Virus record (IMG/VR): IMGVR_UViG_3300048929_000575
Location: 1 to 26,086 of that record
Direction: 5' to 3' (one strand)
Length of the DNA: 26,086 bases
Source of the DNA: a virus
The notes below the pieces were generated by a model. It saw nothing but the letters and a program-made list of their open reading frames with translations, ran no database searches and was not told where the DNA came from. Numbering within the stretch: the first letter of the stretch is position 1; each line of letters starts with the position of its first letter. Both the position numbers and the translations under genes were made by a program. Below are positions 21,532 to 26,086 of the stretch, piece by piece.

Positions 21532-22134
21532 CTAACCTCCAGGATTCCCACTGTTGAAGTTTGTGGCGGGTCCCAAAGAAACCGCTCCACCATTGATCGT
21601 CGGCATGGTCTTCGCTGGAATAGATTGTTGGGAAGCTGAGCTTATGGTCACCGACGAAGTGACGGCTAAGAGAAGCTGCTTGAGCGTGATCCGGAGCATC
21701 AGGATATTCTCTGAGTCCTTATTCGTTGTTTGCGAAATCCCCTTGATCAGCATGTTCTGGTATGGCCGTTTGCCAGTGACCACAGCCAGAAGGATCTTGG
21801 CCTGCTTCAGCGTCAGGAATTGCTGGTACATCGTATTAAGGAACGAATACTGTCCGTTGTTCTGCGGACTTGCTGCAGACCACACATAGGTTAGTTCCAG
21901 GTCTTGGGGAAGATCGAAGGCGTGATCGTTCGTGACGGACCCGGTCTCGACTGGGTTTTCGGTGATGATTGACTCATCGTCGCTTCGCTCTTCGAGAACC
22001 GCATCCGCAGTTATGATTCCCCCCTGGATAGTGGTTCCATTAGGAAGAGTGGTGGTCGGCCAGCTGATGTTCCGTACCGGAGTAACGTACGGCGCCACCG
22101 GAACATCTGTGATGATTGACGGAAGAGTGCTCAC
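21532..22134 (-). CDS. Dit-like distal tail/baseplate protein, 200 aa
   Basis: Residues about 40-160 match the Dit-like N-terminal domain: ADAVLEERSDDESIITENPV, then HAFDLPQDLELTYVWS, LKQAKILLAVVTGKRPYQNM and a strand TNKDSENILMLRITLKQLLL. Such proteins form a ring around the end of the tube. The first 30 and last 35 residues are Pro/Thr/Ser-rich and probably disordered. It overlaps the tape measure stop by 4 nt (ATGA). Confidence 0.85.
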   Translation of the reverse strand: MSTLPSIITDVPVAPYVTPVRNISWPTTTLPNGTTIQGGIITADAVLEERSDDESIITENPVETGSVTNDHAFDLPQDLELTYVWSAASPQNNGQYSFLNTMYQQFLTLKQAKILLAVVTGKRPYQNMLIKGISQTTNKDSENILMLRITLKQLLLAVTSSVTISSASQQSIPAKTMPTINGGAVSLGPATNFNSGNPGG

Positions 22135-23798
22135 GATACCGCTCCCGCGAAGTTACGCACCAAGTCGCCGTTAACCCTGCTTTGTTTGCGGGCGATTTCT
22201 TGTGCCGTAGATTTGGAATCCGGGCCTGCCTCGACATGGATATCTGTCTTTTGGCTGATGGTGACGTTAGGCTTGTCTGGCGTCCGGAATAGATCCGCCT
22301 CAGCCGCACGGCGCCGGGATAGACCTTCGTTTGCCACCAGGTGACCGTTCTCCAGGACTTTGTTCCAGCGCGCGAACTGGGCGGCTGCGGCCTCCTTGTG
22401 GCCAGCGTTCAATTCCTTGAGAAGCGTCGACTTGGCCAGGTTGCCTTCGCCCAGATTGAACACGAAGTCTGTGAGTGCCTTCATCTGATTGCCGCTAAGG
22501 GCGACATGAACGAGCTTTTTGACCGACTCGCCGGCGGCCTGCAGGTCCTTCGTCAGCAAAGCTAGCGCGCCCTGCTTATCGAGGCCTTTCGAGAAATCCT
22601 CACCAGGGCGCACAAGATGGCCATAGCCCGCCGTCAGGTGACCGGCGATGTCCTTGTAGGCACCATATCCAGCCTTTGCGTGTCCTTCGAAGCCAGCGGT
22701 CATTTCGGCGAGAGACTTATTAAGGCCAGCGAGCTGATCTTTTAGTCCTGTGCCGCCCTGCTCCCGTGTGATTTCCTTTTGGTCGCCCCACCAGGTTCCA
22801 GCGGTTGCCTTCTTCAAGAGTTCAGAGCCGATAACAGCAGCGACTACGGGGGCTATCAGACCGCCAGCCACGGCAAGGAGGCCAGAGCCACCCGTGGCGG
22901 CTGCACCTGCTCCGGCACCCTCGGCTACCGCTGCACCAGCCCCGATGCCCCGTAAGGCCGCGATCGCCTTGTACGTTGTCAGAATGCCTGAGGCAACGCC
23001 TGAAACAGCCGTGAGGTGACCTAGCCACCCGCCGGTCTTGTCATCGATCTTGTTGTAATCGTCGACCAGGCTGTTCGTTACGCCGAGCACTTTCTCGCTG
23101 GCAGGCATGACGCCGGTTGCGATCTTGTCCCCAGTCAACTCAACATTCGTCGCGGTGTTGCGGAACGCGCTGGCATAGCTGTGAGCCGTGTCAGCCATTT
23201 TCTTAAGATCGAACTTGCCAACCAGCTTCTCCTGATTGGGAAGAATGCTCTTATTGAAAGCTGCCCGGTTCTTTTCAAACTGCGTCAGCGTGCTTTCGCT
23301 GATACCCACCATGGATGCTTTTTGCGCAGCAATAGCATGCGTGAACGCACCGCCGGTGTCCGATGCGGCGAGCTGCTCGAGCACCTTGAGAAAGTTCTTT
23401 GCGTCGTCGGTAGACTTCGGATCGATCTGGAACAGTTGATCAATACCGGGCATTGATCGCCGGGCTGCGCTGAACTGCTCTATCGCCCCCTGGGTCTCTT
23501 CGGCGCTGACGCCAATCTGCGCAAAAGCGCCCTGAAGCGTCTTCAGTTCCTTCGCGCTGGCGCCTGTACGCTGCGCCGCGAAGTAAAGATCCTCGAGGGG
23601 TTTTGCTATCTTCTGTAGTCCTACGGCAGCGGCAACCGCAGTTCCGACCGTCGCCGCTCCCAGCGCAGCAAAGCCCTTGACCAACGAAGTGGACGTCTTA
23701 CCAATTCCGTCCATCGACTCTTTAAATCGACGCTCCCCACTCTCGTCAATTTTCCAGCCGAGCTTTACGACGAACTCTTTGAGAACGCTTCCGGCCAT
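22131..23798 (-). CDS. tape measure protein with internal GH24 lysozyme domain, 555 aa
   Basis: ATG 23798. The N-terminal half is helical and Ala/Gln-rich, with 'FVVKLGWKIDESGERRFKES' at the start, typical of tape measures in DUF3383-type phages. Hydrophobic stretches lie at about 40-62 and 303-326. Residues about 365-505 are a complete GH24 lysozyme: E371 (GFEGHAK), D383 (AYKDIAG), T389 (HLTAGYGH), then NQMKALTDFVFNLGEG and GLSRRRAAEADLF. The last 45 residues are polar (ISQKTDIHVEAGPD). At 555 aa it would set a fairly short tail. The enzyme domain probably opens peptidoglycan during DNA injection. Confidence 0.9.
   Translation of the reverse strand: MAGSVLKEFVVKLGWKIDESGERRFKESMDGIGKTSTSLVKGFAALGAATVGTAVAAAVGLQKIAKPLEDLYFAAQRTGASAKELKTLQGAFAQIGVSAEETQGAIEQFSAARRSMPGIDQLFQIDPKSTDDAKNFLKVLEQLAASDTGGAFTHAIAAQKASMVGISESTLTQFEKNRAAFNKSILPNQEKLVGKFDLKKMADTAHSYASAFRNTATNVELTGDKIATGVMPASEKVLGVTNSLVDDYNKIDDKTGGWLGHLTAVSGVASGILTTYKAIAALRGIGAGAAVAEGAGAGAAATGGSGLLAVAGGLIAPVVAAVIGSELLKKATAGTWWGDQKEITREQGGTGLKDQLAGLNKSLAEMTAGFEGHAKAGYGAYKDIAGHLTAGYGHLVRPGEDFSKGLDKQGALALLTKDLQAAGESVKKLVHVALSGNQMKALTDFVFNLGEGNLAKSTLLKELNAGHKEAAAAQFARWNKVLENGHLVANEGLSRRRAAEADLFRTPDKPNVTISQKTDIHVEAGPDSKSTAQEIARKQSRVNGDLVRNFAGAVS
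22275..22706 (-). other. GH24 domain inside the tape measure gene
   Basis: This part of the tape measure (about residues 365-508) encodes a lysozyme-like domain. Its catalytic residues are spaced E-x11-D-x5-T, identical to the spacing in the stand-alone endolysin of the same window, although the sequences otherwise differ strongly. Confidence 0.85.
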
Positions 23799-23802
23799 GG
23801 GC

Positions 23803-23976
23803 TTATTTGTCCGATCGCAGGGCGGCCGTTAGGCGCCGCTCGTTCTCGTATTGAACATCGAGCGCATCATTCATGCGGGCGATGTCCAGAAGGTCAAGCT
23901 CACAATTTTTCAAGGATTCGTACCGGCACATACCCTCAAGCACCGGGCGCATTAGCCAGTCATCACGTTCGCCCAT
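23803..23976 (-). CDS. DUF6889-like protein, 57 aa (probable frameshift extension of the tail chaperone)
   Basis: Read directly from the minus strand: ATG 23976, 57 codons, TAA at 23803-23805. MGERDDWLMRPVLEGMCRYE is the signature I associate with the phage DUF6889 family, which sits between tail chaperone and tape measure. It has no Shine-Dalgarno. Its frame is open upstream without a stop through the end of the chaperone gene as far as the T7 run at 24033-24039. Thus it is most likely made as the C-terminal part of a ~200-aa fusion by -1 frameshifting, with or without separate initiation (GTG 23982 is also in frame). Confidence 0.8.
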   Translation of the reverse strand: MGERDDWLMRPVLEGMCRYESLKNCELDLLDIARMNDALDVQYENERRLTAALRSDK

Positions 23977-23996
23977 AGACACGGGCGTGAAACGAG

Positions 23997-24404
23997 CTAC
24001 TTCGGCTCGCCCGATGTTGGCTGGCTCATAGGAAAAAAACTTCCCATATTCTCCTGGAGAACGACTACGGTGAGTCCCATCAAGGTGTCCAGTTTGATGT
24101 CTTCGAACATCAGAACTCCGTTGGTGAATACTTTCGCGTATCCGTTATCCTGCTTTCGTTTGCACACGCCGAGGCACTTGTTGACAACGAAGTCAACGTT
24201 GCTATCAGACATCTCGCCGAATGCTTCCGCGAGCGGTCCGGCGCCAAGACCAAGCACGTCGTCAAGCGTTGATATGCCGGCCGCCAAGGCGGTGACTATT
24301 CCAACGAGGGTCTGACTAAGCCTTCGACCAACATGCAGTTGCTCGAAGGCGTTCAGGTCACCAATGATGTACTTGTGGCCGGCGAATTCTTTAAGGTTCT
24401 CCAT
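23997..24404 (-). CDS. phage tail assembly chaperone, 135 aa
   Basis: Located between tube and tape measure, the conserved position of tail assembly chaperones (lambda G-like). The sequence is mostly helical with segments KEFAGHKYIIGDLNAFEQLH, LVGIVTALAAGIST, FVVNKCLGVCKRK and LMGLTVVVLQENMGSFF. It binds the tape measure while tube protein polymerises around it. Near its 3' end (codons 122-124, AGT TTT TTT) lies a slippery heptamer in phase, allowing a longer form with the DUF6889-like extension. Starts 3 nt after the tube gene stop. Confidence 0.8.
   Translation of the reverse strand: MENLKEFAGHKYIIGDLNAFEQLHVGRRLSQTLVGIVTALAAGISTLDDVLGLGAGPLAEAFGEMSDSNVDFVVNKCLGVCKRKQDNGYAKVFTNGVLMFEDIKLDTLMGLTVVVLQENMGSFFPMSQPTSGEPK
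24033..24055 (-). promoter_or_regulatory. programmed -1 ribosomal frameshift site
   Basis: On the minus strand T_TTT_TTT (24039-24033) is exactly in phase with the chaperone codons. An internal AGGAG (24055-24051) lies 11 nt upstream, a spacing like that of the dnaX stimulatory Shine-Dalgarno. After slipping, the frame reads 19 codons (SYEPANIGRA...) and then enters the DUF6889-like ORF without a stop, giving about 200 aa. A downstream stem CGGGCG/CGCCCG (24013-24008 with 23987-23982) starts 19 nt after the heptamer, farther than usual. Confidence 0.8.
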
Positions 24405-24407
24405 GGT

Positions 24408-24857
24408 CTAGAAGCTCCCAATCCCCACACCGAGCATGGGATCAGCACTGATGGCATCGAATCCCCACTCGTTCATGTTGGCGTCTTCCGCCCACGTGAT
24501 GCCGGGGAACTTCTTGAAAGCCACGCCTGTGCAGGGATAATCGTCGCCAGTCGCCGGGTTGGTAACCGTCAGAGCATTTTGTCCCCAGAAGATCGTGGAG
24601 GCGCTCTGTTGGCTGTACATCACGTTCAACATCGCGTTGACGGGAGACGTTTTCAGCAAGCGTACGCTGATGTGCGCGGCCTTGCTGGCGCGTAGGCTGT
24701 GTACGCCGGATCCGTCCGCGCCGATCAGCATGTTGTTTTTATCGTCCACCATCTCGATAGAAATGCCTTCCTTGTCATTCCCCGCGCCGGCGCCGAGAGA
24801 GATAGCTCCGGTTGGTCCGATCAGCGTCGCGACCACATCTAGAAACGAATAGACCAT
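24408..24857 (-). CDS. phage tail tube protein (DUF3277), 149 aa
   Basis: Matches the DUF3277 pattern: YSFLDVVATLIGPTGAISLG, GISIEMVDDKNNMLIGADGS, then VRLLKTSPVNAMLNVMY and WGQNALTV; NEWGFDA lies near the end. A strong AAGGAGGAG precedes ATG 24857. It forms the inner tube through which DNA passes and lies directly after the sheath gene, the standard order in this tail type. Confidence 0.9.
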   Translation of the reverse strand: MVYSFLDVVATLIGPTGAISLGAGAGNDKEGISIEMVDDKNNMLIGADGSGVHSLRASKAAHISVRLLKTSPVNAMLNVMYSQQSASTIFWGQNALTVTNPATGDDYPCTGVAFKKFPGITWAEDANMNEWGFDAISADPMLGVGIGSF

Positions 24858-24889: not shown

Positions 24890-26086
24890 TTAGTTGGCGA
24901 GAGTGATGAGGACGTTGACCGTCTGCACTGCGCCGGCGAGGTTGACCGCGATCTGGAATGGGACCGAGATGCGGGCGTTGCGTGGGCCGGAAGCTTGCGA
25001 TGCGATCAATGGCTGGTAAATGTAGTAGCCACTCGAGAGGGTCGGAGGGGTTCCATCTGCATTGTTCTGCAGCGCACCGAAGAGCGGGCCATTCCATACC
25101 CCTGGAACGATGAAACCGTTTGTTACGAACTGATCCAGGTATTTCTGAATGGCGATCTTTATCAGGTGGTTTCCCGGGTCGGACTGAGCAACATGCTGCG
25201 TCAGGAACAGGTTGAAGACGCCAGTTTGGATGCCGAGGCTAAGAGCGTCCGCGCCGATGACAGCATCGATCCATTGCCCGTTGCTGCAAATGCCAGGCTG
25301 AACAATGGAGGTTGGGGGAACCGTGTTGTAAGCGACGAACCCATTGGCGTTTTTGGCAATCAGGGCGCCCAGCTGGGTCGTATTGATGGCGTCGCCGGCG
25401 ACTCCAGCGAGTTGCTGCCACATAGCCGCTTTCACGGTATTGCTGCCCGTGTAGTCGACGCCCATCATGATGGCGGCCAGGGCGGCCGATGCATACAGAG
25501 AACTTCCGCTGTACTGGACGGCGACCTTCGACACGTTTGCGGTCTTCAGAATATAGGCGATGTCGGTAGTACTTGTCGGCACCAGGACACCAGCCTCTTG
25601 CGTTGCAGGCCAGTAGAAGTGCTTGTTCGACGAAGCTGCCACGACGGGAGCGACCGCCTCAATGTCGGCATCCACTGCTCCCAGTACATCCAACCCATAC
25701 CACTGGCCGCCGAACCTCGTATCGAAGAGCGCCACAGCCGCGGCCGCGGATTCTGCGGCGATGCCGGCAGCCTGGTAGGCGCCGCTCGATGCAGCACTCA
25801 GCCCGAGGATTCCGCTGATATCGGTCGATCCGCCTGTCGGTGCGGTAGCAAAACCAACCGTGGAGGTAGCGCCCGTCGAGTTGCTGGTAACGATGAACTG
25901 CCCGTAGACGGAGTTCCACACAATCGTGGCTCCCGTCAGCGCCGCCTGGATGAGTGCCGCGACGGCGTTCAGGTTCGCCGCACCGGAGAAGTTGAGCGCT
26001 GTCAGGCTCTCGGCCGATCCGCCGTCGATGACGATATGGAATCCGCCGTTCGTGATGGCCGTGAAGACACTCAAGAGCTGCTGGGC
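24890..26086 (-). CDS. tail sheath protein (DUF3383), N-terminally cut by the window edge
   Basis: The frame runs without a stop off the right end of the window (bases 26075-26086 read AQQL in frame), so the N-terminus is missing; about 398 residues are present. Family features include DISGILGLSAASSGAY, then AAAAVALFDTRFGGQWYGLD, a FYWPATQEAGVLVP strand, SSLYASAALAAIMMGVDYTG, and the C-terminal IAVNLAGAVQTVNVLITLAN. It forms the contractile outer sheath. The tube gene follows after 32 nt. Confidence 0.85.
   Translation of the reverse strand, partial: AQQLLSVFTAITNGGFHIVIDGGSAESLTALNFSGAANLNAVAALIQAALTGATIVWNSVYGQFIVTSNSTGATSTVGFATAPTGGSTDISGILGLSAASSGAYQAAGIAAESAAAAVALFDTRFGGQWYGLDVLGAVDADIEAVAPVVAASSNKHFYWPATQEAGVLVPTSTTDIAYILKTANVSKVAVQYSGSSLYASAALAAIMMGVDYTGSNTVKAAMWQQLAGVAGDAINTTQLGALIAKNANGFVAYNTVPPTSIVQPGICSNGQWIDAVIGADALSLGIQTGVFNLFLTQHVAQSDPGNHLIKIAIQKYLDQFVTNGFIVPGVWNGPLFGALQNNADGTPPTLSSGYYIYQPLIASQASGPRNARISVPFQIAVNLAGAVQTVNVLITLAN

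Follow-up and report, generated by a model that had tools for sequence, protein, structure and literature searches.

A predicted -1 frameshift joins tail assembly chaperone and DUF6889 at a conserved slippery site in contractile-tailed phages

Long-tailed phages widely conserve a low level of -1 frameshifting in their tail assembly chaperones, and the T part of lambda is known to bind the tail tube protein (PMC5009743). A conserved -1 shift at a T-rich site has also been argued for the TAC-N/TAC-NC chaperones of Vandenendeviridae and Andersonviridae in a 2025 study of Pseudomonas phage Adele (PMC12846349), whose chaperone likewise belongs to PF21822 (E 1.7e-23). The C part of the Adele protein falls in phrog_4625/3976, its site reads GTTTTT rather than a full heptamer, and no homology of this C part to DUF6889 was detected by direct comparison. 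Homologues of both the chaperone and the T part considered here occur in Burkholderia phage Magia and Klebsiella phage Mulock, where GenBank joins the two as 'tape measure chaperone frameshift product', and the paper describing Magia states the frameshift (PMC7883833). The mechanism and its use in this chaperone family are already known; what is added here is the link between DUF6889 and frameshifting across the whole family, together with the variation of the heptamer. No paper naming DUF6889 was found in a literature search.

The window analysed in this study, a stretch of viral DNA of 26,086 nucleotides, carries on its minus strand a tail sheath gene, a tail tube gene, a chaperone gene, a DUF6889 ORF and a tape measure gene, followed by Dit-like and baseplate genes. 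The relevant features are listed below.

24890..26086 (-): tail sheath gene, truncated at the edge of the window (PF11863 DUF3383, E 3.6e-80; phrog_205 tail sheath)
24408..24857 (-): tail tube gene (PF11681 KPP10_Orf10, E 1.5e-43; Magia homologue annotated as putative tail tube)
23997..24404 (-): tail assembly chaperone, G-like or TAC-N part, zero frame, 135 aa (PF21822, phrog_1688)
24051..24055 (-): AGGAG, Shine-Dalgarno-like, possible stimulator in the window's phage, 11 nt upstream of the heptamer (sequence)
24039-24033 (-): slippery heptamer T_TTT_TTT, in X_XXY_YYZ phase (sequence)
23940..24029 (-): downstream region with a moderately stable predicted RNA fold, possible stimulator (fold z against shuffles)
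23803..24033 (-): -1 frame after the slip, T-like or TAC-C part, 76 aa and stop, SYEPANIGR...RSDK* (translation)
23803..23976 (-): DUF6889 ORF as a separate annotation, 57 aa (PF21829, phrog_4364)
22131..23798 (-): tape measure gene (phrog_2276 / phrog_12506 tape measure; PF00959 lysozyme domain)

The order of tube gene, chaperone, -1 overlapping T and tape measure is that of lambda G/GT (PMC5009743), and a minor fusion is predicted for the window; the chaperone gene sits between the tail tube and tape measure genes as in loci of the lambda G/GT type. The window differs from lambda G/GT in its heptamer, T_TTT_TTT, and in its contractile tail, which is supported by the presence of a tail sheath gene in this order. 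The same succession of sheath, tube, chaperone, T and tape measure is found in the relatives. Both parts of the putative fusion can be assigned to families. The chaperone ORF matches PF21822 (Phage_TAC_15) at E 2.5e-23 with 83.4 bits, above the gathering cut-off of 22 in Pfam, and the tail assembly chaperone family phrog_1688 at E 4.7e-27; the small ORF matches PF21829 (DUF6889) at E 5.6e-17 with 61.7 bits, above the Pfam gathering cut-off of 23.9, and phrog_4364 at E 2e-18.

A first-pass annotation of this DNA, made from the sequence alone, had placed the heptamer in phase with codons 122-124 of the chaperone, and this proved exact to the base: the three codons read AGT TTT TTT and the codon thereafter is CCT. 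The heptamer is the sole run of seven T or seven A in the whole 26,086-base record, with both strands counted. After the slip the -1 frame reads TCC TAT GAG CCA and onwards (S-Y-E-P-A-N-I-G-R), and translation agrees with the claim that it stays open for 19 codons, meeting no stop before the 57-aa DUF6889 ORF at ATG 23976. The small ORF would be 59 aa long if begun at GTG 23982, and it ends at TAA 23805-23803. The zero-frame stop, TAG 23999-23997, lies 33 nt past the heptamer.

Our main reading, to which we assign a probability of about 0.92, is that the locus belongs to the lambda G/GT type of chaperone loci, here in a contractile-tailed phage, and that a minority -1 slip yields a chaperone-DUF6889 fusion of 124 + 76 = 200 aa. 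Most ribosomes would read the 135-aa chaperone and halt at its stop codon. In a minority, the two Phe tRNAs paired with T_TTT_TTT would slip back by one base, and reading would go on in the -1 frame across DUF6889 to its TAA, giving the fusion. By analogy with lambda, the short form may coat the tape measure protein, the minor fusion may recruit tail tube subunits via its T part, and both forms may leave before the tail is completed. We infer the slippage itself, its efficiency, its ribosomal nature and the function, the role of the T part being drawn from the analogy.

The case from a single genome is modest, with a probability of about 0.06 that codon choice alone places a heptamer at the site in the window, and relatives were therefore gathered in three ways: IMG/VR was searched with the chaperone, GTDB genomes and IMG/VR were searched with the T domain, and phages from GenBank were added. 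This provided 235 loci, which include some contigs met in two scans, and 140 loci after removal of redundancy. The DUF6889 frame lies at -1 to the adjacent chaperone in 235/235 loci (in the first set, 88/88 plus the window), and no locus showed any other phase (0/235). Since 146 of the loci, from two scans, were sought by the T domain itself without any demand on the chaperone, this universal phase is not a selection effect. The conserved loci span contigs of Alpha-, Beta- and Gammaproteobacteria as well as Desulfovibrio genomes, and the hosts in the genome records include Rhodospirillaceae, Brucella, Novosphingobium, Acinetobacter, Photorhabdus, Erwinia, Burkholderia and Desulfovibrio.

For 47 non-redundant loci, the window included, the site was placed from the chaperone protein alone, using a motif of the type N/S-L/M-G-x-F. 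The codon that precedes the Phe codon ends in T in 47/47 of these loci, against 16% for comparable residues elsewhere, even though such codons encode eight amino acids (Asn, Pro, Gly, Ser, Ala, Thr, Arg and Asp). The Phe codon that follows is TTT in 42 of the 43 Phe cases, as compared to 69/243 elsewhere. A heptamer was observed at the site in 45/47 loci, where 500 resamplings of synonymous codons gave an expectation of 6.2 +/- 2.2 with a maximum of 13. When the larger collection is considered, a canonical X_XXY_YYZ heptamer is found near the chaperone end in 129 of the 140 non-redundant loci. TTTTTTT is the most frequent (52), followed by TTTTTTC (23), TTTTTTG (18), CCCTTTT (13) and AAATTTT (13), while GGGAAAT (5), GGGTTTT (3), AAATTTC (1) and TTTTTTA (1) are rarer; the letters vary across the relatives and the place and phase are fixed. 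The remaining 11/140 loci retain NNT_TT(T/C) without a full heptamer, which suggests that A-site slippage alone suffices there, or that some of these loci are weak. They are L012, L033, L090, L101, L112, L127, L128, L132, L182, L199 and L223, and in L182 the chaperone end is long, with NNT_TTT at -99.

The new frame is conserved as well. In every locus of the 47-locus set, the open T frame begins upstream of the chaperone-defined site and continues through it, and in 8/47 loci its opening lies just 9 nt ahead of the site. No -1 stop occurs in 2059 codons, a count that is partly built in, as an open frame was a condition of the site search; in the +1 frame, this stretch contains 41 stops. Immediately after the slip, the -1 frame encodes conserved residues, F-[FY]-x-R-x-P. 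Both the heptamer and the new frame are under selection. The proposal of the first-pass annotation that the small ORF is the T part of a G-T protein of about 200 aa thus gains support from the universal -1 phase and from the conservation of the heptamer among homologous loci, the comparison by which it was to be checked. The outcomes named beforehand as refuting it, such as homologues in another phase, interrupted by stops or without a slippery run, did not turn up among the loci compared.

It may be considered whether chaperone and DUF6889 are instead two separate genes, a free small DUF6889 protein being made from a start of its own or by ribosomes that re-initiate after reaching the chaperone stop. 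BgManors32 is annotated in this way, and in 23/129 relatives an NTGA start in the T frame overlaps the chaperone stop (preceded by AGGAG in L016), so that a free T product could be made in those 23 loci. In the window, however, there is no Shine-Dalgarno before GTG 23982 or ATG 23976, just as had been noted for the small ORF at the outset, and a conserved Shine-Dalgarno for a free product, named beforehand as an outcome that would count against the fusion, is not seen among the relatives, of which just 6/129 have a strong one. Moreover, in 32/129 relatives the T frame lacks any start codon from the slip site up to its last 50 codons, and in four loci of the 47-locus set (L008, L029, L032 and L054) it has none at all up to the conserved core. 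Separate genes would also leave the fixed -1 phase, the heptamer and the conservation of -1 codons ahead of the chaperone stop unexplained. Independent translation of DUF6889 is poorly supported, and we regard this explanation as very unlikely.

Slippage by RNA polymerase rather than by the ribosome could also restore the -1 frame, and the window does have a 7-base homopolymer on which it might occur. Seven bases are nevertheless short for polymerase slippage, and at the same place relatives have C_CCT_TTT, A_AAT_TTT, G_GGT_TTT or G_GGA_AAT, their sites mostly containing four or fewer identical bases in a row. That the letters change while the site stays in place points to ribosomal slippage of tandem tRNAs and speaks against slippage of the polymerase on a homopolymer, an explanation that we rate as slightly less likely than separate genes. 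The modest single-genome probability of about 0.06 would agree with a T run arisen by chance next to the degenerate remnant of an ORF, with no functional fusion; this is refuted by conservation over 140 non-redundant loci from diverse hosts, and the likelihood that we attach to it is negligible.

The elements that had been noted along with the heptamer fared less well as stimulators. The AGGAG is present 11 nt upstream of the heptamer as described, at about the spacing known from dnaX, but it is not conserved, many relatives being without any. On average the upstream Shine-Dalgarno signal is stronger than the control (-5.5 vs -3.1), yet it is weak in many loci and is tied to the conserved codons for Q/K-E/D-N-L-G. 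A possible downstream stem was the weakest part of the original observation: the window does show a moderate fold, with z of -2.08 over 90 nt (6/200 shuffles were as stable) and -1.27 over 60 nt, but the family lends no support, with a mean z of -0.67 for the 60-nt fold over 47 loci and 11 loci below -1.5. A search of Rfam gave no match. As general stimulators, AGGAG and stem are not borne out across the relatives, and the site probably works mainly through the heptamer.

Pairing of the post-heptamer region with the D-W-L codons of T was also considered, being apparent in the window and in L006, L155 and L161. As a family feature it was rejected, since over 108 loci the own pairing (-15.5) was matched by that with a shuffled partner (-15.5) and nearly by cross-locus pairing (about -15.1).

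Heptamer letters unlike those of the window are seen in described relatives. The Magia heptamer is C_CCT_TTT and that of Mulock A_AAT_TTT/T_TTT_TTG, and the chaperone identity in this comparison is 35%. Aminobacter phage Erebus, with a chaperone of the same Pfam family, has GAT TTT TTT at the same place. In Pectobacterium phage PM1 of the Chaseviridae (L240, 37199-37477), the phase is again -1 and T_TTT_TTC lies exactly where the -1 frame opens; a 52-aa ORF is found between chaperone and tape measure, and the chaperone and this ORF are annotated as separate genes, PM1_049 and PM1_050. The T frame is unannotated in Acinetobacter phage AbTJ (L239) and Bordetella phage IFTN9 (L004), and the tape measure gene of AbTJ is annotated as starting inside the T frame. 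The expectation that annotation as two genes hides the fusion thus holds in part: many records leave T unannotated or separate, although Mulock and Magia already annotate the product.

The AF2 model of the chaperone (pLDDT 86.7) gave no Foldseek match against the PDB at E <= 0.001, and the solved tail assembly chaperones HK97 gp13 and YqbN are not among the matches listed for it. The best match on a second look was 5ir0 (VIA Z 8.0, rmsd 3.3, 93 residues). This entry is ORF19, a protein of unknown function, from a Vibrio cholerae PICI-like element, and the modelled resemblance is a hint of a fold shared with a satellite-element protein. The T part is modelled (pLDDT 83.5) as a small helical domain, and a 52-aa PM1 protein is among the best fold matches of this model, with a weak E of 1.4; judging from its length and place, this protein would be PM1_050. 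A sequence search of solved structures returned no credible match for either the chaperone or the DUF6889 part.

The downstream end of the T frame also deserves mention. In the window the tape measure gene begins 4 nt past the T stop with a weak Shine-Dalgarno, and the T and tape measure genes overlap in 95/129 loci. With such closeness or overlap, translation of the tape measure may be coupled to the frame-shifted ribosomes. The tape measure protein itself is just 555 aa long and contains a PF00959 phage lysozyme domain (residues 379-500, E 5e-31), that is, a wall-cutting domain inside a tape measure.

For the family as a whole, we think it reasonably probable that DUF6889 rarely if ever exists as a free protein, and that the entire family is the frameshift-made C part of Phage_TAC_15 chaperones, the letters of the heptamer being swapped around an NNT_TT(T/C) core that hardly varies, some loci relying on A-site slippage alone and no stimulatory RNA element being conserved. 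This would provide DUF6889, a Pfam family of unknown function, with a likely function, by analogy, as the C part of the tail assembly chaperone, and it means that many phage and prophage records omit or split the chaperone-DUF6889 product. The 140 non-redundant sites, with varied heptamers at a fixed place and phase, constitute a mutational series provided by nature, in which the requirements of a bacterial -1 site can be studied, and the eleven loci with NNT_TTT/TTC only are a natural set for asking if A-site slippage alone is enough.
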